DNA of 15,448 nucleotides, taken from NCBI GenBank assembly GCA_030267965.1, contig BRYA01000344.1, forward strand, positions 1 to 15,448, read 5' to 3'. The notes beneath the pieces are model-generated. The model was not told the DNA's origin and did no database searches. It saw nothing but the letters and a program-made list of their open reading frames with translations. A program made the translations under genes and the position numbers. Of this stretch, positions 1,157-15,448 are shown in pieces; within the stretch, counting starts at the first letter, position 1, and each line of letters opens with the position of its first letter. Source of the stretch: Triparma columacea. Taxonomy: Eukaryota > Sar > Bolidophyceae > Parmales > Triparmaceae.

Positions 1157-4100
1157 ATGGAGGGGGGCATCATGGTTGACTTCGAGGCCGATACTTCCAC
1201 CCCGCTTGTATCGTCGCCGAGGACTGAGCTCACCCTTTCGGTGGAATCTTCCAGCCCTGAGCAGCCAAATCCCTTTTCTAATGGGCGCTCAAGTGAAACT
1301 CCTCCTCTTGTTGACCATGCTAACGCAGAAACTGAGCTCTCCGGTCCTTCCCTACTCCGTCTTCCCGATAACAGTGCAGTCGCCGATGCCGCCGATGCCA
1401 CTGATGCCAATGATGCCACAAAGTATGGAAATGAAGATGATCTACCTCCTTCCTCTCCTGCGACTGGCACAGACTCTCTTATTCCGATGAAGTTCGGAGA
1501 CATAATAAGCCTCAACGTTCTCCAGGCCTCCCTCTCCGGGTATCTATCGGCCGATCCGTGCTTCGAGAGGGTCGGTTTCACGCAGACTCACCACGACTTA
1601 TCTGACTCCCACAGAAGCGACTGCCTGTTCCAAGTCGTTCCGATGCTGAGCTACGACAACAAGGCATCCAAGGCAAAGCTGGAGCGGAGGGGTTCCTTCT
1701 CCACGGAGGAGTCCCTCCTGGTGGATTTGAGGATACAGATGGAGGAGGCCAAAAATAAGCGCCAGATGAAGGTGAGTGTGAGATGAGTTTAGGATGGTAT
1801 GGGGGGATGAGATGAGATAGATGAGATGAGATGAGACGAGATGAGATGAGATGAGATGAGATGAGAGACGCGGAGCCTCTACAGCTCGCCACACCTAATC
1901 TCACCCCACCCCTCCTTCCCTCTCCCCAAGGCCATGCTCGAAAACAACCCCTCCTCTCGCTCAGGCTTTGTAATGTATGGCATGACGATCCAGCTCCGCC
2001 ACCTCAACTCCAACAAGTACCTCAATGCCGAGTCCTACACGGCCCTGCGGGAGAAGGACTGCCTCCGCCTCTCCCTCAACCCGGGAAGTTTGAACTGTGC
2101 ATTCCGGGTCCTCCCCCGCTTCAAGGTGCGCCATGAGGGCAGTGAAATTTACTACCGCGACCAGGTGTTTCTCTACAGGTGAGATGCGTTGAAATGTCAG
2201 GAGATGTGATGAGATAACGCCGCCACCGCAACCAACCCAAGAACGAAATTCTTCTTACACACATTGCCCCCCCTCCCTCCCCTCCCCAGCCTCCGGATGC
2301 CGGACTACGGGCTTCGTGCATCTCCCTGCATCTTCGATCCTCTCGAACCAAAACCCACAATTTCAGAGGCCAACCTTTCCGTGAAGCCCTCTTCCTTCCG
2401 CGTCGACATGTTCGCTCGTTTCTCCACCGCGCAGCGCTCCTCAGTCATGTTCGAGTCGATGGACCTTGTCCGTTTCTCCCACCCAGAGTCCGACTCCTTC
2501 CTTTCTATATCATGCGACGAAAAGAAGGCTCACAAGCCTCCTTACCTGAGAAAAAATACGGAGGTGAGCATCTTGAGGAAGGTTGAGATGTATGGAGACG
2601 AATGAACATGTGCGTCTTTCTGCGTATCTAACGTAACGTAACCCTTCCGTCGTCGTCGCAGGAGGTAAGCCACGACATTTCCTCAAAGGGCCTCTGGGCG
2701 ATAGAGTCCCTCGGAGGTTCCACCGCTAGGGCAGTCGAGTGGGGCAAAGAAATAAGAATCAGGCACGTCGCCACGTCAAAGTACCTCTCTATTGGTAGTT
2801 CGCCCCAAGCCGCCTTCCGCGAACGCTCGATGTCTTCGATAGACATCCAAACAGGTGGCCTGCCTGGATCGTCCAACGCCGAAGTAGTGAGGACAAAGTA
2901 TCTCACTTACGGATGCGAGATGGTGGCTCGTAACGAGATATCGGCTCGGTCCGTATTCCGCCTCGTCCCCACTGACTCGCAGAACGAAGAGGTCCCGAAG
3001 ACCAACGTGTCCTTCCGACTTGAGCACGTCACGAGCTCTAGTCAGACACTTCATGTGACGGCTATCTCCAAACCGAAATATGCCTCCTCAACCTGGGACG
3101 TGAAGTCTCTCGACATCCACTTTTCTCCCATTAAGGGAGACAACGATGCATTCCTCCTAATGCCCTTTGAGGCAGACTACATGATTTCCAAGCTTTCTTC
3201 CCTAATGTCTGCCAAGAGGTACCTGTCGTGGTTCACTGGGTCACATTTGCAGAACATTGACTCCATCACTGCCCTCCGCCCGTCTGACATTACCAAGTGC
3301 ATTAATGTCCTCGGCAAGATCATACAGATGATGAAGTTGCCGCTTGCGAAGGGTGAAGACTCTCAGGGTGACAGCGGTGATGACAAGCACTTTGACGTTG
3401 CGGCCCAAAATTACGCCCGGGAGCTCAAGGTCATGGACATCGTTTTCGCTATAGCGACAATTCCGAGGTTTTTCAATTTGGACACAACGTACGACTCCAA
3501 GTTTTCCACGTTCAGCGACAAGAATTATAGCAGGGTTGCTGAGCTTGTGTCGCTCGCTTGGAGAGCCATGGAGACAATGTTCCTGCACAACAGCGACAAC
3601 GAGGATTACTTTGCCCGCAAGGTGAGGATTGAAAGACATTCCAAAATAACAAAACAAGACGGAGAAATTTCGTGATCGAAAAATGTCCCTCTCCGACTAA
3701 CTCCACCTCTTCCGCGGCACCCCTCCGCTTTGCTCGCTGCAGCCGGAGTGGATTAACGTCACTATAAGTTTGGTATCGGACCCCATCGGCGCCGCAGTAG
3801 CGTTTGGAAAGCTAATCAACAACAACGCGGACCTTCTAAAGCGTTATGTTTCCCGACCAATAATCCAGGCTTTCAAGGACCTCATCAAGTCCAAGGGACT
3901 ACAATCTCGTCTCCTCTCCTTCTTTGCCACCATCTGCACCTGCAAGCAGAAGGCAATCCTTTCCAACCAGGAGGCCGTCCTTTGCGAGCTTTGGCTCGAC
4001 GAGCCTTCCCGAGAGCAGACATTGTTTAGAATATTTGAGAACGACGACATGGCAAAAGCCACCAACTTGGAGACGGTCCTCTCCCCTATGCCTGACTCCT

Positions 4101-7100
4101 TCCTCGGGATTGAGTGTATCACCGACGGCTTCAAGGAGGTCCTTGTGGACTGGTCCGCCATCGAACTCCTCTCGAACTTCAAGATCCTGGGCAGTCAGAC
4201 GGTCTCGGTCGAACAGCTCTGTTGGGTGCTTGAGCCGGAGCATCTGTGCCAGGTCGTCACTGGGAGGAATTGGGACGAAGTTCAAATGTCATTTGCGCCT
4301 GTTATAGACTCTCTAGGCAATATAGTTCGAATGTCTGACGCAAACATGGAGGTGAGGATGGGAGCACACTGAAACCCCCCTCTTGCGACTCGCTCCTCGT
4401 CCGCCCCAACTCACCCCCTTTGCTTGCGCAGTACAACCAGCTTTGGGACTTGGCGCAATACTTCAAGGTCCAACTAGACCTCTTCTCGTCGATGTGTTTC
4501 GGACGTTCCTACGCTTCCATTACGGCTCTCTCGAAAGTGGTCCCTTACAGAATGCTAGTCACACTTGCGAATTCGAAGAAGTTGCCAAAGTGCATCCGTG
4601 AGGCCTCCGTCAACGTTATTCACAGGCTTTACGTCGATAGGTATCCTCATTCCTCGCACTGTGGCCGCCCAGCCTTGCCCGATTTGATATGGAAATCAGA
4701 TGAACTGCGAAGGATTGAGTTGGCATCGGCAGGTGAGGTAGTATGCTGTCTTGCGTGGTTGAACTCTTGCGTGCTTGCCCCCACCCCACCTTTAAGCACG
4801 TCCTAACCCAGATATCGACCCTCCCAACCCAGCAGCTCGTAGTGAAGAAGGAGCCTTCCCCAGCTTTAAGCTCCCCCAAGAGAACGAACTCAACAACAAC
4901 CAAGACCCCTTCTATTCCATCACATCCCATACCAAATTTTTCCTGCTTAGATGCTTGATCCAAGGAGTATTCGACGATTTTGGTGATGTGCAAGAATACA
5001 GCCCTTCGCACCGCCCTGCCAACGGCCTCGTCTGCTCTGTCATTAATCTTCTCGCCGACCTCATGTCCTTTGGATTCTTCTCGACGAAGGATAAGATCGA
5101 CATGGCTTGCCGTCCCATGAATCGCCTTTTGGACGGAAGAACTGACATTGTGCCTTACGAGGGCAATCGTAGTGCAAGACACCACGAGGCTAAGCGGCGC
5201 AAGAGCAAGTCGTCATCCAACAAGATTCAGCCTGTGGGAGGGGACGGTGCTGCTGATGCTGCCGGTGTCAATGGAGGCGATGGAGGGGGTCTCCACAAGG
5301 CAGTCGAAGACTCTCTTCATGCCCTACAGAAGAGGGTCCTAGTTGGACCCTCCCGTTTCGCCAGCGACTCTCGCTCCATTGACGCTCACATGTCCAAAGT
5401 CTACGTATTTCGCACTCTCTTCTCCATTGCAGAGCTGAGGGCTCACTACCGTGTGGGCCAGCTGTTATTCATGATCAAGGAGTATGCTTCTCGTGGGCAG
5501 TCTATTCTCACATCTGACGGCTGCGTTTCTTCTGCTTTCTTCTCGGACTTTGAAGAACTTTTCACTTCCCCTGATGGAACCTCTTTGGACATCAACTCCA
5601 TGATGGACGCACCGATCGATTCAGTTTGCCTGGATTTAATGATGTATGACACAGATGCTGTGTTCGAGATGGCTCTGGGTTTCATTCGCCGTCGTTATGC
5701 TCAGCGCAGGACGTTGCTCGGCGTCTTGCCAAAGCTTTCGATCCTAGACTCTAATAAAATCCCCGTCTTTGACACGTTCGGGAAGCTCGAGAGTACGCTC
5801 AAGGACTTGACGTACATCATTCGCTCGTACAACGTCTGGGGGGTCTTCAATTCTATCGACAGGCCTATTGCTCTATCGACATATGAGAAGTGCCTCGGCA
5901 TCTTCGACAAATTGGATCAGTTCCTTTTCGACGATGACTCCAAGAACCACTTCGCCAGCGACAAGCTGCCGTCCAGTGTGACTGGGAAGGTAAAGAAGTT
6001 CCACCAGGGTATTCTTCGCAACATGGGATTAGTGCGCAACGTCCTAGTGTTTGGGCTTGAAATTGACATCGATATGATGAGCAAGGTCAATCCAAACTTT
6101 CGCAATTTGTCGCCATCCCAAAACGAGGCACTGCTTCTGAAGCAATCCAAGGATATTTTGTACCACGTTTGTAAGAGGGTAGTCTTCACGCTGAACGCCT
6201 TCGTCTTCAAGAACGCCGACAACCAGGCTATTCTTTTCAACTTCCTTGATCTTCTGGGTGACAAAATGGGCGTCGGTCTCAACGTTTGGGACATCGTCAT
6301 CACCCTCTTAGACGGCAACGGGGACCTTTGTGAAGTCGTTCCCGTCGCTATATTCCAAAAGGTGGCCAAAATCCTGGCAGGCTTCCAGGTGAACGCTGTC
6401 AAGCAGACCCTCGACCATCGTCTTCTTCGTTTGCTCGAGTTTTTTTTCGTGTTGATAAAGCCCCTTGAGGGAGAGATGAGGTAAGAATGGGCTATGCATC
6501 AAAGTAGCATCGAGACGACGATGCCGTTCACCTTGCAAGGCGTCACGTGATACCTCATGGCAAAACGATAATTTTAACCATAAACACAATCCCCTCCGCG
6601 ACTCGCTTCGCTCGTCGTAGACCGATTGCAAGGTCCCAAGATTTTGCCACTCAGGTCCTCTTCGATGGTTCTGTTTCAGGTTGTCTCCTTCTCAAACTTG
6701 ACCTTGCCGAAATGAGCAGCAGCGGTGACTCCCTCCTCATCAGCTACCACATCAAGTTGATAAAACTGCTGGCATTGACAGCTGCCGAGAGAAATAGTAC
6801 CAGCACGGCCAGAGTCCAGTCCCAGATAACCTTCGATGAAGCAATTGCGCTGGTTTCTGCCCCTGTCAGTGACTCGAGCATGGTGGAGTGGGAGATGTTG
6901 CAAAAGGCGGCGTTCCTGGACCTCCTCAGCACCACCTACGTCGACACGGCCCTTTTGGAGAGGTCGATGTGTGGGAAGAAGGCAACGTGGGTAGCCTTGG
7001 AGTTCACGTGCTCTCGCTTGATGGGGGTGTTCAGAAAGAGTGTTCTTGGTGCTCAGAGCACGAGACCAAAAGACGTTTTGAACCCTTCCCCTGACACTGC

Positions 7101-10100
7101 CGACGTCGTGTACGTCACCTCTGCGATCAACTTTCTCTTCAGGTTCTTCAAGGTATGTTACGAGCCTGGAGCAGTTACCGAAGATTGTGGGGAACTCCAC
7201 GCCAACACCAAAAAGTCTATCGAGGAGTTGCAGCGCCACGTTTTGTCCAAGAGCGATAATTATCATGTTTCGATTGTCAACCTCACGAAAGACCTTGCGA
7301 AGCAGATGGTATTGCACAGCAAGGATGCCCAGGTCCAAAGTGCTAGACGGGCAACCCTTCGTATCGGCGACCCTAAAGCGAGGGGTGTCTCCTTCTCTGG
7401 CGCCGAGGAGGTGCGTGAGGGTGATGCTGTGATGATAGCGCAAAGTGGCGTTGACAAGATGAAGGATGAGAACATTTCGGACTACGCGAAATCTGCCTTT
7501 TCGGCCCAGATGGGAGCCAAATTCGATTCCATTGACTCTGACGGGAACGGTTACTTGAGCCAGAAGGAGGTCTACAGTGCCATGAGGCAGGAGAAGCCCG
7601 ACCTTACCAAGAAGGACGCCAAAGCCTTGTTCAAGAAATACGACAAGAAGCGAGGGAGCGGGATTGACAAATTCGAGTTCCTTGACATGATGGCAGATGC
7701 CAAGAGCATGGAGCCAGGGAGTGGACTTGAGTGGCTAGAGGACCGCGAGATTATTGACGACGACCCGGAGCTCATCAATCTGATGCAGAGCGATCTGTCG
7801 TCCTTTCTTCACTTGAAGGTTGTCCCAGCACTGAAGAAGAGCCAGAAGGTTATCACGGCACTTTGTCGTAAGGATGATGAGTTCCTTGATGTCCTGGAAA
7901 ACTCGGAACAGATAACCTCGCCGGATGATGCTGAGTACATCGCTGCGTTGAAGGGAACGTCCGTCGAAGAAGAGACGCGATTGGAGAAAATAAGGAGGGC
8001 CGCGGAAAACAATGACCCCTTCGAAATCTTCTGCGGCAAGGTCCTGTCGATCCTGAATGGAGCTCGTGTCCTCGTTATTGTCTTGACCGTAGTTTTCTTC
8101 GCAATCGTCGTGCTTCTGATCCAGCTCATTGGGGAGACGAACGACACCCTCAAGATGATGGACTTGCTCATCACGATCTTCTTCACAGTAGAGCTCGTTA
8201 TAAAGGGGGGTTGCCATGCGTACGTTCACAAGGAGCTCGACACTTTCTTGCTTGATTTCATGAATTTCATCGACTTCTCCGTGGTTTTCATCGACCTCTT
8301 CTTCATTTACGTTGAGCAGAGGGGGGATGGGGGCGGTGGTGGAAGCAGGAGCGGAGGGCTCATCAAGGCCCTAAGGCTCGCCCGTGCTGCACGACTTTTT
8401 AGATTAATCAGGATAAGGAAGCTGCTTGCAGTGAGCTCTAAGAATATGAGCGTCGAGGAAGCTATGACGGACCCTCGTGCCGTCCCTATCAAGTTTGAAA
8501 TGCTGCTTGGGCGCATGGTGCGCTACTTGCGGGATAATTCTCTCAACACGGAGAAGACGGAGACCCTTGGAACCGTCATGCACGTATTAAATTTGCATGT
8601 GGGGAGGGCACACAAGCTACTGAATCCCACCATGTTGGAGGAGGCAGCGCTCATAGAAGACACGAACGTCCAAGACTTGCTTTTAAGGAAGAAAGCAGAG
8701 TTCGAACAGATCCAGATGCACATCGGTATCGATTGTGAGTGCGTTGAAGTGTTGCTTGAGGCTATAAGCCACACGAAATCACTGGGCGTAAGGGAGGACG
8801 CCATCGACACCTTGAGGAACCTTCTCCTCGGAGGCAACAAGAATGTTCAGGCTGCTTGCGTGGACACCCTGACCGACAGTGGGAGTCGATCCATCGGGGC
8901 CGCATTCTTCTTCAAGGTCAGGGATCTATTGAGGGATAATGTGACAAAGCTGAAAGAATACAGAATTGTCAGGAAAATGAACCCGGTGAGGGCCGAATCG
9001 CTGGGAGGCGATCTTCTCAGTTGCTTGAAGATCATGAAGCTTATGAAGGAGATGTGCGAGGGGCATTACAGCCCCCTACAGAATCTTCTTCGGAAGCAGC
9101 CGCACGCCAAGAGCACGAACTTGGTCGAGGAAACGATGGATCTATTTTGCATCGTTGCCAAGAACCTAGCGAGCGTTCGGCAGTGGGACGACGTTGAGGC
9201 AAACGTCGGAAACGAAGCGATGACTTTGATGATCGAGCTGTCCCAGGGGCCATGCCGTGAGAACCAGCAGACTTTCGCCGAAAACGCCAAGATGATCGAC
9301 GGCTGCCTTTGCGTCGTGACGGCTAATTTGCAGTCAGTGAAGGATGCGAGGCTCAAGCTTCAACTTGAGAGCTCCTGTATGGTGCTTCTTAGCAGTCTTA
9401 TGGAGAACGGCACACCGGAGGTTATCATGGCCATCAAGGACCTCGTCCCTGTAGCAATTCTGGACGACCGGGCTGACAAAGTGGCGCGCAAGTTAGATTG
9501 GCTTGGATCGATGGGGGCAACTTTCAGGGACGAGTTCATTGAGGTACTGAACGCCGAGGCCCAATCAATCATGACCCTGAAGCAAGCTTTCGAGGAGAAC
9601 GACGAGGAGAGTGGAATCATGCAAGGGGTTGGAGAGGCTGACGATGGAAGTGAAGACGATGGGGGCGAGGAGGGGGGAGAGGGGAGGAAGAAGGGGAAGG
9701 AGAAGGAGAAAAGTGGTCTAGCTTTGAGAAACGTGGAGGTGTTTTAAACGGTAGGTGCCAGAAGGTATTTTTCAATGCCGCGCTGGATAGCCTGAGCAGT
9801 TCAAGTAAGGTCAGGTTCATGGACGAGTGCGATTTGAGCAGTCAGGAGGCGAGGGTGAAGGAGATGATCCAGGCGTGCGATGACTTGGAGGATGAGATGG
9901 AGTACTTCCTAAAGATGAAGGACTTCCGCGTATTTCAAATGTTCACGAGGAATTTCCTAACCATCAAGAGGTAAGTGTCGGAAAGGTTTATATCGGGGGG
10001 TTGGGTTTACATTTTTGTGGCTTGCAGGTATTCCTCAGAATTCCTCTTATTCAATCAATTGCGCCACGGTTCCCTTCGCTCGCTGCAGCTTTGTGTTTGC

Positions 10101-11577
10101 TCTCGTACTGCTGCTTAACGTGAACGTCATGTTGAGCACCCTGACGGATGAGAACCTCGTCCTCGCTGATTCCACGTGGGCCTTCAACAACAGCGCGGGT
10201 CTGACGGTGCTTTTGGGCGTTCTCGTAAATTTTGGGTATACTTTCATTGTTGCCTTCCTCATTGTAAGCTTCGGTCCCCTTGAGTGGAGGCGTTGCTTGA
10301 GAAACCAGGAGCTGCAGGACGAGGAGGAGGAGGAGCTTCGCAAGAGGGGGGAAGAGGTGCCGCGGAGCAACGCCATGTGGAAGTTTTTCGTGGCAATCAT
10401 CTTCTACGTGTGCTGCTGCTACATCCACAGCATGACGAAGAATGCCGCGGGGGCCGAAGCCTACTACGGCCTAGGCGAGACCTTTTTCGCCCTCTTTTTG
10501 CCCTTTGCGCTGAGGGCCCAACTCCAGCTCCCCAAGAGCCCCATCTTGAGACGGTACTGCGCTGCACTCGACTTATTGTCCTATCCACCCATCCGGAACC
10601 ACATCATTCTGGTGGTGTTCACGTATGTTGGTCTGTGGAGGAGTTATTTCTTTACCTTGACGTTGCTGGATGTGCTTACCATGAGTCAGACGCTCTACAG
10701 CGTTGTTAAGAGTGTGCTGATCCCGATCACTCAGTTGACGCAGACCTTCTTCCTTTTCATTGTCGTGATTTGCTGCTACACTTCCTTCGCGTACTTTCTC
10801 TTCGGGAGTACTCAGTTCGGGGGCGAGGACGACAGGATGATTGAGTACCTCGTCAATTCGACAGTCGGGGCGAACGGAACTGAGGAGGAGGTTTTGCAGC
10901 CCACGGGCGTGGTTTGGCTCCCCGAGGAGGAAGAGGGTGCGGTCGAGGGGTGTGATACACTTTTAGAATGCTTCATTCAGACGACGTACATTGGAATCAG
11001 GGCTGGAGATATGGCCGAGGTGCTCGATGACCCGGACGAGAGCTCATACCACGTGAGGATGCTTTTCGATTTGAGTTTCTTTCTCATCCTCGGTATCCTT
11101 CTCTTCGACATGGTGACTGGCATAATTTTGGACACGTTCGGCGCGCTCAGGGAGGAAGTGGCTGAAAGGGAAGATACGCTCAAGAACGTCAGCTTCATCA
11201 GTGGCCTTGAGAGGAAAGAAATCGAGGAGATTGGAGGTTTGAACTTTGACAGCATCAACGAAAGCGATCAGAGCGTGTGGGACTACATCTTCTTTGTCAT
11301 TTACCTGCGGAATAAGAGCCCTTCAGATATGACGGGTTGTGAGACGTTCGTGCACGAATGCCTGGAGGCGGACGACACAAGTTGGGTGCCTAATCACACC
11401 TCCTTGGTAATGGAGAGGATGGGCATTGGCGATGACGGGGGAGAGGACGACGAGGTGCTTATGCAAAAGGTTGAGGGGTTGGAAAGGGGTATGAGGAGGC
11501 TTGAGGAGCTACTCATGAATGCGGGGGTTGGGAACGGAGGGAACGGAGGGAACGGAGGGGAGGGGGCTAAAAGCTAG
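1157..11577 (+). CDS. IP3 receptor/ryanodine receptor-family calcium-release channel with inserted EF-hands and voltage sensor
   Basis: Exons: 1157-1771, 1931-2178, 2290-2563, 2662-3621, 3743-4351, 4432-4732, 4812-6480, 6621-9970 (with one frame break) and 10089-11577. The product is about 3171 residues if one base is missing; IP3 receptors have about 2700. The start ATG has good context (GCCCATGG). Domains in order: a disordered leader (1-110); the Ins145/MIR trefoil region (111 to about 480, e.g. MKFGDIISL and IQLRHLNSNKYL); RIH/armadillo repeats (about 600-1100, e.g. VQLDLFSSMC); further solenoid; an EF-hand pair (1864-1911); a voltage sensor (2038-2160); an armadillo stretch with GGNKNVQ; the RIH-associated domain (about 2353-2453, ELSQGPCRENQQ); then a six-segment channel with two luminal NxT/S sequons, a pore, S6 and the C-terminal thumb-and-finger region. 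The family releases calcium from ER-type stores as tetramers. Odd points are listed under separate entries: voltage sensor, altered filter, lost zinc ligands, weak IP3 site and frame break. The family assignment is firm. The ligand and the membrane it sits in are inferred. Confidence 0.92.
1772..1930 (+). other. Channel gene intron 1 (phase 0)
   Basis: The donor AAG|GTGAGT and acceptor CCCCAAG|GCC join ...RQMK to AMLENN. Without removal the frame ends in a stop at 1784. The intron contains an ATGAG pentanucleotide microsatellite. Confidence 0.88.
1807..1866 (+). repeat. ATGAG pentanucleotide microsatellite in intron 1
   Basis: About twelve tandem, slightly imperfect copies of ATGAG/GATGA, interrupted by an ATAG and an ACGAG unit. 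It lies wholly inside intron 1 and extends the donor-like GTGAG motif of that intron. A shorter GAGATG-rich stretch follows the donor of intron 2. Confidence 0.9.
2179..2289 (+). other. Channel gene intron 2 (phase 2)
   Basis: The donor CTACAG|GTGAGA and acceptor CTCCCCAG|CCTC join VFLYR/S to LRMPDYGL, keeping the MIR region in frame. The 3' end is strongly pyrimidine-rich. Confidence 0.88.
2564..2661 (+). other. Channel gene intron 3 (phase 0)
   Basis: The donor ACGGAG|GTGAGC and acceptor CGTCGCAG|GAG join LRKNTE to EVSHDISSKGLW. A CTAAC branch-point-like motif lies near 2628. The splice falls in the loop that binds IP3 in animal receptors. The alternative AGGAG acceptor at 2664 would drop a codon, so one residue here is uncertain. 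Confidence 0.85.
3622..3742 (+). other. Channel gene intron 4 (phase 0)
   Basis: The donor CGCAAG|GTGAGG and acceptor CTCGCTGCAG|CCG join DYFARK to PEWINVTI. A CTAAC motif lies near 3697. The 3' end GCTCGCTGCAG is identical over 10 bases to that of intron 8. Confidence 0.88.
4352..4431 (+). other. Channel gene intron 5 (phase 0)
   Basis: The donor ATGGAG|GTGAGG and acceptor CTTGCGCAG|TAC join DANME to YNQLWDLAQYF. It contains GCGACTCGCTCC, which recurs as GCGACTCGCTTC in intron 7, and an ACTCAC branch-like motif. Confidence 0.88.
4733..4811 (+). other. Channel gene intron 6 (phase 1)
   Basis: The donor TCGGCAG|GTGAGG and acceptor CCTAACCCAG|ATATC join RIELASA to DIDPPNP. The CTAAC motif sits immediately before the acceptor. 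The downstream frame stays open through 6480. Confidence 0.82.
6481..6620 (+). other. Channel gene intron 7 (phase 2)
   Basis: The donor GATGAG|GTAAGA and acceptor CTCGTCGTAG|ACC join PLEGEM-R to PIARSQDF. The frame would stop at 6482 without splicing. It contains a perfect GCATCG/CGATGC inverted repeat. Other AG sites at 6632 and 6656 are possible and would change a few residues. Confidence 0.78.
7534..7677 (+). other. EF-hand pair of the channel
   Basis: The loop at residues 1864-1875 reads DSDGNGYLSQKE. It has Asp at positions 1 and 3, Asn at 5, Ser at 9 and Glu at 12, a complete calcium-binding pattern. A second loop at 1900-1911 reads DKKRGSGIDKFE. It has Asp at 1 and 9 and Glu at 12 but Lys at 3, so it is probably weak or structural. 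Helices flank both. The pair sits about 130 residues before the voltage sensor on the expected cytosolic side. Confidence 0.85.
8050..8430 (+). other. Voltage-sensor domain (S1-S4) inserted in the channel solenoid
   Basis: Four hydrophobic segments are visible. S1 is about residues 2041-2063 (VLVIVLTVVFFAIVVLLIQL). S2 contains ITIFFTVELVIK, the F-x-x-E...K charge-transfer pattern. S3 contains FMNFIDFSVVFIDLF, the N-x-x-D-F pattern of voltage-gated cation channels. S4 is LIKALRLARAARLFRLIRIR. In S4, K2141, R2144, R2147, R2150, R2153 and R2156 are spaced exactly three apart, followed by R2158 and K2159. The S3-S4 loop is Gly-rich. No S5-pore-S6 follows; the chain returns to soluble armadillo-type sequence. 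The even number of membrane passes keeps both flanks on the same side. Confidence 0.92.
9001..9320 (+). other. RIH-associated domain of the channel
   Basis: Residues about 2353-2453 carry MKEMCEGHYSPLQNLLRKQ, NLVEETMDLF and LSQGPCRENQQTFAEN. These match the conserved RIH-associated pattern (a C-E-x-H block, then x-QGPCxENQ) shared by IP3 and ryanodine receptors. In the known structures this block links the cytosolic solenoid to the channel's cytosolic collar. Confidence 0.9.
9642..9761 (+). other. Reading-frame break in the channel gene
   Basis: The long exon frame that starts at 6622 ends in TAA at 9745, after an acidic/lysine low-complexity tail. A second frame, open from 9642, continues with LNGRCQKVFFNAALDSL and then MKDFRVFQMFTRNFL. 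This is the segment expected just before the membrane domain in IP3R. Joining them needs one missing base between 9642 and 9744 (many G and T homopolymers lie here), or an intron of length 2 modulo 3. Intron candidates ending at CAG 9761 are 9628-9761 (134 bp, weak donor GTTGGA) and 9739-9761 (23 bp). Neither has a pyrimidine tract, unlike every other intron in the gene. Confidence 0.8.
9971..10088 (+). other. Channel gene intron 8 (phase 2)
   Basis: The donor AAGAG|GTAAGT and acceptor TTCGCTCGCTGCAG|CTT join NFLTIK-S to FVFALVLLLNVNVML, the start of the first pore-domain membrane segment. Two earlier AG sites (10027 and 10038) give the wrong frame. Confidence 0.85.
10089..11145 (+). other. 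Channel pore domain (six-segment IP3R/RyR type)
   Basis: Membrane segments run from SFVFALVLLLNVNVML, through LTVLLGVLVNFGYTFIVAFL, AMWKFFVAIIFYVCCCY, YYGLGETFFALFLPFAL and IILVVFTYVGLWRSYFF, to S5 (QTFFLFIVVICCYTSFAYFLF). The LLDVLTMSQTLYSVVKSV linker matches the family S4-S5 linker. A luminal loop carries NST and NGT sequons and the CDTLLEC motif. Then come the pore GIRAGDMAEVL (10993-11025) and S6 (LFDLSFFLILGILLFDMVTG), ending in ILDTFGALRE. The filter is one residue shorter than in animal family members and lacks the triple glycine. Confidence 0.88.
11191..11280 (+). other. C-terminal thumb-and-finger segment lacking zinc ligands
   Basis: SFISGLERKEIEEI...SVWDY aligns with the family CFICGLERDKF...MWHY segment that normally binds zinc through C-x2-C and H-x4-H. 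Here both cysteines are serine and no histidine is present. The scaffold residues (F-I-x-G-L-E-R, W-x-Y) remain. Confidence 0.85.
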
Positions 11578-11738: not shown

Positions 11739-14700
11739 ATGGAAAGCAGGAAGCAGGAAAGCAGGAAGGGAAAGCAGGAAGGGAAAGCAGGGAATCAAGG
11801 AAAGCAGGTTATGGCCAAGAAGAAGAAAAGAGGGTAAGTAGACAGATCTACCAACACACGCTAAAATGACCCCCCCCCAACCTGTTCCACCTGTTGTCAA
11901 ATATAAGCATAGTAGATGATTTCCAAGCCTCCCCCCCCATCGTCGATCCAGCTCCCAATCAATTTCCTCCAAATTACTCACCTATTTCGCTTATTTTTTA
12001 CACAGCGGCGGAGATGCTAGAGGCTATGCTACGACTGCACAACCTAGGAAACCAATACCAGTCCCATTGAAGAATATAAAAGAGCATTCACCTCAGACTG
12101 AGGTCTCCCCTACCCCCCCTACTTCCCCACAAATTACCACCGAAAAGATCGACCTTCCGCCCTCTCCTCCCAAGTCTACTGACCCTATCTACCCGTCCAA
12201 AGTGTTGAGATACGACTGTTCTGACCTCTCTGGTTTCATCGAAAACTCTGTCGATGTCAATGACCTGCTTCACGGCAAGGGCGGCATTGAGTGGGACTCA
12301 AGCGGGGAGGTAAGGGACGACGCCCGGACCGCTCACCTCGCGGCTGAGCTTCTGCGCTCGGGCCAGAGCAGGACGAGCGTATTGAAGAAGCTCTTCCTTT
12401 ACACTTATGGTAGGTGGGAGGGGGAGAGGCTTAATTGGGAGGAAGCTGCAGGGTGGGATGGCGAGGGTTGGGAGGGTGTCTTCCCTGACTGGAATGCCTG
12501 GCTAAAGTCTGAGGAGGACGTTGAGAGGGAGGAGAGGTTGAGGAAGGAGAGAGATAAGGAGGATCAGGAGAGGCTGGAGAGGGAGCGGGAAGAGAAGGAG
12601 AGGGAGGAGAGGGAGAGAAGGGAGGCCCAAGAGGCGGCGCCGGAGCCGCCCTCGGACGCCGGACCCGAAACGCACGTCTTCCTACCCCTCCCCACCCAGC
12701 TCCCCTCAGAGTCCCACTCTGCGTTTGCGTGCCTGTCTGTAATGTGGGAGGCGTCAAGGCTGGAGAAGGAGCTCGATATTGTCAGGAGCGACTACCTGGC
12801 CTCGAAGAAGGATGTCGCGGCGGCGGAGAGGAAGGTGAAGGACAAGAAGAAACACCTTGGGAGGCTCAAGGGTAGGGTTGTTGACGATCATGTTAGGAGG
12901 GGAATGGAGGAGGCTGTCGAAAGGTACGACGAGGAGGGGAAGCTGATTGATGGGGGGGGTATGGCAGAGGTTCCCGTGGAGCGCGTCAAGGTCGAGGTGG
13001 AAGAGCCATCCAAGGAGGGGGAGGGGGAAGGGGTCGAGGATGAAAATGATGGAATTATGGGCTTCGGGGACATTATGGGAGCGCTTGAGGGGGAGGGCGC
13101 GGATGGCATGGGCGGAGGGGAACGCGCGGCCTCTGCCTCGGAAGCCCAGACGGAGGAGAAGTTCACCATCAACAAGGCAACCACGAAGGTCGGATCTACT
13201 CTGACACCCAAAAAGTGGACTGGAGCGACTCCGTGGAGTTACGTGAAGCTAATGAATAAGAAGGCCCTGTGGAATCACTTTAAGAAAGGGGGTAACGGAA
13301 CGGTTAAGACTGCCTCAGCAATGGTGGTCGGGTCTGCCTCCGAGATGGCTGCGGAGGTCCCGGTTACGGTTGTGACAGTGAACGACTTCAGGGACTTTGT
13401 GTCGCTCAAGTTTCTTTACGAGACGTCGCCGTCGCTTAACCCGGCGCCGCTGTTCCCGCCCGTATGGGTGGACGTCTGGAAGGCGTGGAAGTTCGCGGAG
13501 GGGAAGGAAGAGAGGGAGAGGGCAGAGAAAACGAGGGCAGACTGGAGCTGGGTGAGGGAGAGAATGCAGGAGGTTAGAGGGAGGGTAAAGGGGGGCGTCG
13601 TGGAGGAGCAAGACGAGGGGAAGGAAAGGAGGAGCAAGGTGAGGAGGGCCCGGAACGGAGACTTCAAGCCGTTCTCCTGGCACTACAACACTGCAGAGTA
13701 CAAGGAGATGAGGAGGAAGAGGGAGAAGCTGCCGGCCTGGAGGTTTAGGGAGGAGGTCGTGGGGGTCGCCATGTCACGCGCCGTCACAATGGTGAAGGGA
13801 ACGACTGGGTGCGGCAAGAGCACGCAGGTCCCCCACTTCCTCCTGGCGGCGGGGGAGGACACTAGGATCGTCGTCACGCAGCCGAGGAGGATCGCGGCGA
13901 TCGGGGTAGCGGAGAGGATCGGAAAAGAGATAGGGTGCGGGTGCGGGGGACTGGTGGGGTACAGGGTTAGGGGGGGGAGCAAGTGCGTCGATAACACTAG
14001 GCTGACCTTTGTTACTACTCAGGTTCTAGTGAATGAACCAGAGTGGATCGACGAGATTGACTTTGTGGTGGTTGACGAGGTGCACGAGCGCAACTGGCAG
14101 ACCGACCTGCTGCTTACGCTGTTAAAGAGGAAGATCCGCGAGGGACGTTGGCAGGGTCGGGTAATTCTGATGTCGGCGACGGTGCAGGTCGAGGTCTTCA
14201 AGCAGTTCTTTGACGTCGACATTCCTAGCATTGAGATTGAGGGCAGGACGTTCCCGGTTAGGGGTTACTACTTGGAGGACGTGCTGAGGGGGACGGAGGA
14301 GAGGATCGGGGAGGAGTACTGGGTTAAGCCGCAGGGGGACCTTAAGGGAAAGGCTGCGGTCAGGATGAGGCAGGGGGGGGGGGTCAGGGGCAAGGTGGAG
14401 CTGGATTACTATGACGAGGAGGGGATTGTTTGGGACAACGGGAACTACTCTGCTTACGATGGGTACGGGGAGGCGGTTAGAGGGGACATGAGGAAAGTGG
14501 ACGAGGCTAGGATAAACTACGGTCTGATCGTTAAGGTCGTCGTGGGGTATTTGAGGAGGGAGGGTATGTTCAAGGACGAGCCCGGGGAGGAAGAGGGGGG
14601 AGGCAGCGTACTGGTCTTCCTCCCGGGTAAGGGGGAGATCGAGAAGCTCATAAGGGAGCTTGTAGGGTGCAGGGAGTGGAGGGAGCTGGGGGCTAGGGGG

Positions 14701-15448
14701 GTGAAAGTCTTGCCTCTGCACTCTAGCCTTGACCCTGGGAAGCAGAGCGAAGTTCTTGGGGGCCGAGGGGTCAAGGTTATCGTTAGCACTAACATCGCTG
14801 AGACTAGCGTCACGATCGAAAGTGTGACTATGGTAGTGGACGCTGGGCTGGTTCGGGAGGTCGGCGTTAGTAAGAGGACCGGCAGCAGCGTTCTGGAGTG
14901 CAAGTGGACCAGCAGGGCCAGCGCAATGCAGAGGCAGGGCAGGGCGGGCAGGGTCAGGGAGGGCGTCTGCGTTAAGATGTTCAGCAAGTTCACGGAGAGG
15001 GAGGTCATGAGGGAGGAGGGGAAACCGGAGATTGGGAGGATGCCGCTCGAGGAGGTCGTGGCGTGCATCTTGGGCTTGGGGGTTAGGGACATTGAGAAAT
15101 TTGCGTCAAGTATGCCAACCCCTCCCGAAGAGTCCGTGTTATCCAAGGCTCTGTCCGTCCTGGAGGAGATCGGCGCTGTCGATTCCGCAGGTTTGATTAC
15201 CCCTTTGGGCTTGGCTGTGGTGAAGTTGGGTTGCGACGTTAGGGTTGGAAAGATGCTGCTATGGTGTTGCGTTTTCGGGAGGGTTGAGTGGGGGCTCGGG
15301 ATTGCGGGCTGGCTGGGAGTGGGGAAGAGCTTATGGGGAGACGGGGAGGAGGGGGGGGGGGGGGGCTGGAGAAAGAGAATGGTAGAGGAGGTGGGAGGGA
15401 ATGATTTCGAGCTCGCCGGGAAGGTTTGGGAGGAATATGAGGGGGCTA
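11739..15448 (+). CDS. DEVH-box RNA helicase (DHX29/DHX57-like), 3' end cut off
   Basis: Exons are 11739-11833 and 12006 to the edge, at least 1179 residues. ATG 11739 is the first after an in-frame stop at 11706; ATG 11811 (MAKKKKRG) is an equally good alternative start. The N-terminal half is Pro-rich, then highly charged (Glu/Arg coiled-coil-like, about 180-290). The helicase core has motif I GTTGCGKSTQ (630-639), Ia TQPRR (656-660), II DEVH (722-725), III SAT (755-757), the motif IV-type VLVFLPGKGEI, V STNIAETSVTI (959-969) and VI QRQGRAGR (1007-1014). A winged-helix/HA2 region follows (PEIGRMPLEEVV...LITPLGLAVVKLG, from about 1031). The DEVH variant is typical of DHX29 and DHX57; DHX36 has DEIH. 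This family unwinds RNA with ATP, 3' to 5', and DHX29 helps ribosome scanning, but that role is only inferred. The C-terminal OB-fold is outside the window. Arg is mostly AGG and Glu mostly GAG, giving a strongly G-rich sense strand. Confidence 0.92.
11741..11808 (+). repeat. Purine-rich GGAAAGCA tandem repeat at the helicase 5' end
   Basis: About five imperfect units of GGAAAGCAGGAAG (8-13 bp) lie between the two candidate start codons. If translated they give a Lys/Gln/Gly/Arg-rich leader of 24 residues. Otherwise they are 5' UTR. Confidence 0.75.
11834..12005 (+). other. Helicase gene intron 1 (phase 2)
   Basis: The donor AGAGG|GTAAGT and acceptor TTTTTTACACAG|CGG join MAKKKKRG to GGDARGYATT. 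The unspliced frame stops at once (TAA at 11835). It contains two poly-C runs and a CTCAC branch-like motif near 11978. Confidence 0.85.
15351..15365 (+). repeat. G15 homopolymer inside the helicase frame
   Basis: Fifteen consecutive G encode five glycines in the region after the winged helix. The frame stays open to the window edge with this count, and the following residues (GNDFELAGKVWEEYEG) look like normal coding sequence. A one-base error here would shift the whole C-terminus. Confidence 0.9.

Follow-up and report, generated by a model that had tools for sequence, protein, structure and literature searches.

In muscle, the coupling of membrane voltage to internal calcium release is the work of two proteins, CaV1.1 and RyR1. 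Whether a single polypeptide could combine both parts is the question raised by a gene in a contig of Triparma columacea, a diatom-related marine alga (BRYA01000344.1, 15,448 nucleotides; the window, below, is this whole stretch). The gene appears to encode a channel of the superfamily of inositol trisphosphate (IP3) receptors and ryanodine receptors (IP3R/RyR), with an S1-S4 voltage-sensing domain (VSD) set into its armadillo (ARM) scaffold. We consider it fairly probable, from sequence and predicted folds, that this is a divergent Ca2+-release channel in which a sensor inserted at the ARM2/ARM3 border turns voltage into release. If so, giant channels of the IP3-receptor kind in this alga may directly convert membrane voltage into a calcium signal.

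A voltage sensor inside the release-channel scaffold

Positions 8050-8430, at which the original prediction had placed a complete four-segment sensor, translate to S1-S4 without a stop inside the single open frame 6508-9747. Pfam Ion_trans matched residues 523-636 of this 1079-aa frame (E 2.6e-10) over positions 6-111 only of a profile of 241, so the sensor, as predicted, has no S5-S6 of its own. Within the sensor (residues 515-641), S2 carries F559-x-x-E562 (F-T-V-E) with a Lys four residues on from the motif, S3 carries N586-x-x-D589 (N-F-I-D) with a second Asp seven residues on, and S4 carries K-R-R-R-R-R-K at exact i+3 spacing, the first K at 8365 and the rest running from R at 8374 to K at 8419-8421. 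The features by which a VSD is recognised, aromatic-x-x-acid in S2, an acid in S3 and basic residues at i+3 in S4, are all present. When the 1079-aa frame was shuffled 20,000 times, a run of at least seven basic residues at i+3 arose in 9 shuffles. Solved CaV1.2/CaV1.1 and Kv1.3 chains matched the sensor by sequence, with a best E of 1.1e-5.

The first structure model was built on an alignment of 6 rows and was poor in S4; the sensor was refolded alone with 13 rows and its fold compared by VIA-align scores. The predicted structures have the four-helix VSD fold and the ARM3 solenoid fold. Foldseek with the refolded sensor gave no match under E 0.001 (best 0.016, NavAb). In the structure model S4 ends (residue 640) about 20 residues ahead of the first ARM3 helix (661-663). 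S4 is succeeded by armadillo sequence, unlike the VSD of CaV, NaV and Kv channels, which is followed by S5-S6. Armadillo and RIH-associated sequence had been described on both sides of the sensor in the same frame. This held downstream, where RIH_assoc and a weak Arm match were found; upstream, the frame has an EF-hand pair and otherwise no Pfam match at E 0.1, RIH and MIR being located in earlier exons. A stretch of about 125 residues separates the EF-hand from S1.

All 24 IP3R-type VSDs aligned keep the S2 aromatic (F; Y in P0021), the S2 acid (E; D in P0013 and P0020) and both S3 Asp, and the six S4 positions are all basic in 23, P0020 being the exception; the S3 Asn is less constant. In six rows that we call type A (see below), the F and E of S2 and the N and both D of S3 are invariant, as are one Lys and five Arg in S4 and, beyond S4, D336, R338 and F344. 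Between the window and two relatives, P0003 and P0002, S4 is the best-conserved of the blocks compared (77% identity); the whole VSD reaches 46% and blocks outside it 25-46%, the pore lying outside this comparison.

One gene for sensor and pore

Pfam gave the domain order Ins145_P3_rec, MIR, RIH, RIH_assoc and Ion_trans pore over the window pieces, the pore Ion_trans being carried by a downstream piece (9961-11577). P0003, a 3056-aa protein of Triparma laevis f. longispina (TrLO_g6616), holds Ins145, MIR, RIH, EF-hand, RIH_assoc and two Ion_trans stretches in a single chain, with the VSD at 1918-2060. By tblastn its residues 5-3042 are colinear on window 1472-11508 in eight pieces, and residues 1458-2451 (EF-hand, VSD, RIH_assoc) fall on 6601-9636 as a single piece. 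The same protein search found P0002 (2012 aa, without the N-terminal part). Over window 9731-9765 these relatives read through, and the window continues in another frame. A paralogue in the same genome, C147 (L031:231-7886), has an uninterrupted 2552-aa frame with RIH, VSD (354-502), RIH_assoc (1485-1574), pore (2023-2155) and C2.

Because the relatives carry all parts in a single protein and the paralogue does so in one frame, it is unlikely that 6621-9745 and 10089-11577 are separate genes, one of the ways in which the original prediction could have failed. Another, absence of the insert from all orthologues, is excluded by the VSDs of P0002, P0003 and the type B relatives described below. 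The frame break at 9745-9747 lies outside the VSD; it is due to an indel, a slip of the assembly or a splice that went unrecognised. That break, the several exons of the gene, and the type B protein P0019, in which 67 residues take the place of the 152 of C147, VSD included, would suit a chimeric assembly, a set of neighbouring genes or an intron that is spliced out of the mRNA. Yet P0002 and P0003, from other assemblies, bear the same VSD at the same place, C147 holds everything in one frame, and type B P0006, from a T. retinervis genome annotated with RNA-seq hints, retains the VSD. This explanation is mostly refuted and in our judgement extremely improbable; a chimera or artefact was rejected on the other assemblies and the one-frame paralogue.

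A divergent member of the IP3R/RyR superfamily

The predicted class, an IP3R/RyR-type channel, stood as to the domain set, and sequence and predicted fold place the protein closer to IP3R than to RyR. No SPRY or RyR-repeat Pfam match was found in the eight window pieces scanned or in P0003, and a ryanodine receptor proper was rejected on this ground. The class did not stand as to IP3 binding, most of the contacts checked being absent from the orthologue. We take the IP3-binding positions to be R265-R269, R504, K508, R511, Y567, R568 and K569. In P0003, which here stands for the window's exons, T267, R269, R504 and K508 differ and R265 and R511 match, in an alignment that is divergent. Equivalents of Y567/R568 are missing, in a likewise divergent alignment, from 15/15 VSD proteins aligned; this multi-protein check covered contacts other than the RTTGR stretch. 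The CFICG zinc-finger linker is replaced by SFVSG in P0003 and FISGLER in the window; it is kept in 10/14 type B rows, the remaining 4 being gapped there. The protein reads as a superfamily member without most of the checked IP3 contacts, and without the CFICG, of an IP3 receptor in the strict sense.

The activatory Ca2+ site is reported to be formed by E1882 and E1946 of ARM3 with the juxtamembrane T2581, H1884 and Q1949 lying near (PMC8930994); on its ARM3 the window has the corresponding Glu, His, Glu and Gln. Both Glu are present in 12 of the 15 VSD proteins aligned (15 of 20 entered the Ca2+/IP3-site alignment). The three without them, P0021, P0022 and P0023, form a type B subgroup in which the VSD is kept and both activation glutamates are lost; voltage may therefore be a more dominant input there.

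Relatives, paralogues and two insertion sites

Published parmalean genomes measure 31.0 to 43.6 Mb (PMC10328945); the window's own genome, as searched, comprised 37.85 Mb in 789 contigs. It gave six RIH_assoc matches, five above the family cut-off, with a VSD at 4/6 loci: the window (C329), C39, C206 and C147. Three protein searches, each scoring the best 7977-7981 candidates by shared words so that counts are lower bounds, gave at least 83 proteins, 82 of the IP3R family; P0004, a CaV channel, was left out of the tally. The search with C206 as query gave at least 2 proteins, one already found by other queries. The closest named relatives by sequence, among the matches listed, are Triparma (Bolidophyceae, Parmales); T. 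retinervis P0006 shares 84% identity with C147 across the region searched.

A VSD profile (E <1e-5) matched 20/82 IP3R-family proteins listed. The 62 without a match include all animal ITPR among the matches listed, Phytophthora capsici P0080, P0005, P0019 and P0069; P0069 is N-terminally truncated and cannot show the site, yet is counted here. P0019, counted as a miss, is a real or a gene-model loss because its 67 residues stand where C147 has 152.

The VSD occupies two sites. In type A (the window, C39, C206, P0002, P0003 and P0084) it lies about 500 residues ahead of the pore, as measured on P0003. Sequence alignment places this site between IP3R1 positions 1453 and 1971, and the fold places it just before ARM3 (model 342-719 on IP3R1 1647-2173). 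In type B (C147, P0006-P0018 and P0020-P0023) the distance to the pore, taken from P0008, is about 1,300 residues, and the site falls between ITPR2 positions 882 and 1047; the best RIH match precedes the VSD in P0008 and comes after it in C147. The original prediction had suggested looking for PF00520-like segments between RIH and RIH-associated domains of protist relatives: type A has them there, type B at the second site. The type B channels C147 and P0008 end in a C2 domain.

In a tree of the protein bodies, which left out C206, five type A rows formed one group (100/100) on the side of C192 and of animal and other VSD-less proteins, and type B stood on the opposite side (100/98) with P0019 and P0069 among them. 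In the VSD tree the IP3R-type VSDs branched apart from 8 CaV rows (100/100); a single clade of all 24 was not rejected (p-AU 0.156), nor one of A (0.41) or of B (0.121), and an SLC9C-like VSD (C35) and an orphan VSD (C418) were placed among type B. The sensor may have been captured once and then moved, or captured twice. On the idea that the VSD is a copy of the pore's S1-S4, a search with the VSD profile gave no match at E <1 to pore domains of IP3R-family proteins. The anatomy is supported and broader than first described: it recurs in full-length relatives and in paralogues and at a second insertion site, the sensor residues hardly vary, and the predicted folds agree.

How the channel might work

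We infer from the sequence that voltage gates calcium release in this protein. Four helices would leave both sensor ends cytosolic and so keep the topology of the C-terminal pore. The sensor would sit beside the pore in the same membrane, that of the store or whichever the channel occupies; movement of S4 would turn or free ARM3, and Ca2+ at the ARM3/juxtamembrane site and at the EF-hands would, together with the S4 effect, open the pore. The spacing of about 20 residues from S4 to ARM3 speaks for a direct mechanical link of this kind and for placing the sensor in the same membrane as the pore. It has been proposed that IP3 primes the receptor and that ARM3 constraint leads to rotation of the juxtamembrane domain and pore opening (PMC8930994). 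In type A voltage may stand where IP3 stands in animals, because most of the IP3 contacts checked in P0003 are missing while the Ca2+-site residues are kept, and IP3 probably does not trigger the window's channel. Ca2+ permeation through the GIRAGD pore is predicted, with a selectivity that may differ from that of GGGVGD pores. We hold in even balance the broader claim that bolidophytes, and probably other protists since the type B relatives are divergent, have single-chain voltage-gated release channels, with the sensor at ARM2/ARM3 or RIH1/RIH2 and type A independent of IP3, as a counterpart of CaV1.1-RyR1 coupling.

Several points weigh against voltage-driven release. The channel is known here from sequence and predicted folds, and the flank model had a predicted template modelling score (pTM) of 0.52 and a local confidence (pLDDT) <50 at S4. 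Voltage across store membranes is commonly thought small, which weakens a sensor in that membrane. The pore filter GIRAGD departs from GGGVGD. The window's VSD frame meets a stop at 9745-9747, whereas the reading frames of P0002 and P0003 continue there as far as the pore, and the P0003 gene model was built on protein hints without RNA-seq (PMC10328945). Two further RIH_assoc genes, C66 and C192, showed no VSD in seven open frames scanned, and type B P0019 is without the VSD stretch. Some type B proteins, such as P0008, retain equivalents of R504/K508/R511, so loss of IP3 contacts is clear only in part.

Other roles for the four helices have to be weighed. They might serve as a structural or targeting anchor, with charges kept for folding, assembly or lipid binding and not for gating, much as TMEM266 is a human VSD protein without known channel function (PMC13095418); with six S4 positions basic in 23/24, S2/S3 countercharges kept in 24/24 and S4 conserved above the other blocks, we find this unlikely. 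The VSD might also lie in the plasma membrane and the pore in the endoplasmic reticulum, one polypeptide spanning the contact as if CaV1.1 and RyR1, whose physical coupling is established (PMC13095418), had merged. Cytosolic VSD ends permit this topology, and the stretch between EF-hand and S1 is a possible tether. However, the distance from S4 to ARM3, which in IP3R lies close to the membrane, gives little reach across a junctional gap; we regard such a bridge as quite unlikely. Currents through VSDs have been described (PMC10651576), and the sensor could itself let protons or cations leak through, as Hv1 does, while tethered to the release channel. The VSD alignment shows neither a conserved acid in S1 nor a Trp in S4. 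The signature of Hv1 is an S1 acid and RxWRxxR in S4; a proton channel is unsupported on these residues, and permeation through the sensor is very improbable.

If voltage-driven release is right, a conserved protist family with sensor and release channel in one chain would mean that such coupling can be built outside animals, at two scaffold sites. It would also offer a single gene for asking whether the voltage across endomembranes can be put to use and how force travels through an ARM solenoid to the pore of an IP3R.

Comparison with known systems

With IP3 receptors (ITPR1-3) the window's channel shares the order Ins145, MIR, RIH, RIH_assoc and pore, the Ca2+-activation residues and the ARM3 fold; it adds the S1-S4 sensor and EF-hands before ARM3 and differs in its filter, and P0003 lacks most IP3 contacts checked and the cysteines of the LNK zinc finger. 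Ryanodine receptors have a related pore, the RIH/RIH_assoc scaffold and EF-hands, but here the EF-hands stand ahead of RIH_assoc and SPRY and RyR-repeat matches are missing; RyR1 draws its voltage from a separate CaV1.1 (PMC13095418), whereas the window's channel has its own sensor. CaV channels match the VSD by sequence, and CaV-like repeats occur in the same genome (C581, C755), but in CaV channels the VSD is linked to S5-S6, and three CaV1.2-like repeats aligned lack the second S3 Asp of IP3R-type VSDs. In SLC9C1, the sperm Na+/H+ exchanger with a VSD and a cyclic nucleotide-binding domain, a stand-alone VSD gives a voltage response to another kind of membrane protein (PMC6052114, PMC13095418); there it sits on an exchanger, here in the cytosolic solenoid of a release channel. 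Ci-VSP, a voltage-sensing phosphatase (VSP), has a phosphatase as its effector, and the protein here a channel scaffold. Oomycete PKDRR is likewise a stramenopile domain mixture with a release-channel module (PMC7399828), but joins PKD-type channels to RyR domains, not an IP3R channel to a VSD.

Among the proteins named in the available passages of the 2024 review Voltage sensors are SLC9C1, VSPs and TMEM266, with ryanodine receptors appearing only as CaV1.1 partners (PMC13095418); the terms IP3 and inositol are absent from its text. The available passages of protist and stramenopile Ca2+-channel papers do not describe a VSD inside IP3R/RyR (PMC11085791, PMC9694693, PMC7016017, PMC3194816, PMC7399828, PMC4820453), subscription papers and bioRxiv lying outside the search. 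A superfamily channel with a built-in voltage sensor is apparently undescribed; this is absence from the literature searched, not proof.

Gene layout and neighbouring genes

Table. Features of the channel gene in the window
Feature	Position	Strand	Evidence and remarks
Channel gene, approximate coding span	1472..11577	+	several exons; start codon and splice sites approximate; tblastn P0003 and open frame to 11577
Ins145_P3_rec (IP3R/RyR N-terminal domain)	1484..2179	+	PF08709 E 5.8e-20; spans frame interruption
MIR and start of RIH, open frame	2632..3672	+	PF02815 E 1.5e-12
End of RIH (RYDR_ITPR), open frame	3701..4369	+	PF01365 E 4.2e-9
ARM2-like open frame, weak RIH match	4796..6484	+	PF01365 E 0.002, below cut-off; colinear with P0003 909-1462
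1079-aa open frame: EF-hand pair, voltage sensor, Arm, RIH_assoc	6508..9747	+	ORF list, Pfam
EF-hand pair	7510..7692	+	PF13499 E 4e-9; residues 335-395 of 1079-aa frame
S1 of voltage sensor	8065..8130	+	translation; hydropathy peak 3.24
S2 with F (8182-8184), E (8191-8193), K (8203-8205)	8149..8211	+	translation, alignment
S3 with N (8263), D (8272), second D (8293)	8245..8313	+	alignment
S4: K at 8365, then R,R,R,R,R,K at exact i+3 (8374-8421)	8359..8427	+	translation, alignment
Conserved post-S4 segment (DPR...F) leading into ARM3	8470..8499	+	D336, R338, F344 invariant in 6/6 type A rows
Arm repeat, weak	8728..8823	+	PF00514 E 0.0023, below cut-off
RIH_assoc (ARM3)	9022..9300	+	PF08454 E 1.8e-19; residues 839-931 of 1079-aa frame
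Activation-site residues in RIH_assoc	Glu 9058-9060, His 9064-9066, Glu 9235-9237, Gln 9244-9246	+	alignment
Continuation in other frame, matching P0003/P0002	9747..9977	+	61-64% identity
C-terminal pore domain	10090..11577	+	PF00520 E 1.7e-12; 75% identity to P0003 over 10090-11508
Filter-like GIRAGD in pore domain	10993-11010	+	translation; common to P0003

By eye only, the neighbouring open frames of the window resemble an ankyrin/MYND protein (3-911) and a DEAH helicase (11920-15447). Elsewhere in the genome, C418 (L015:5274-7172) encodes an orphan membrane protein of 633 aa with many helices, among them a VSD. The S4 of this VSD has seven basic residues at i+3, and the protein gives no Pfam match other than the VSD. 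C35 (L016:3351-6893) joins a Na+/H+ exchanger, a VSD and a cyclic-nucleotide domain, the SLC9C architecture, in an alga. C581 (L041-L043) and C755 (L046) each carry several CaV-like VSD repeats, so the genome also has conventional-looking voltage-gated channels.
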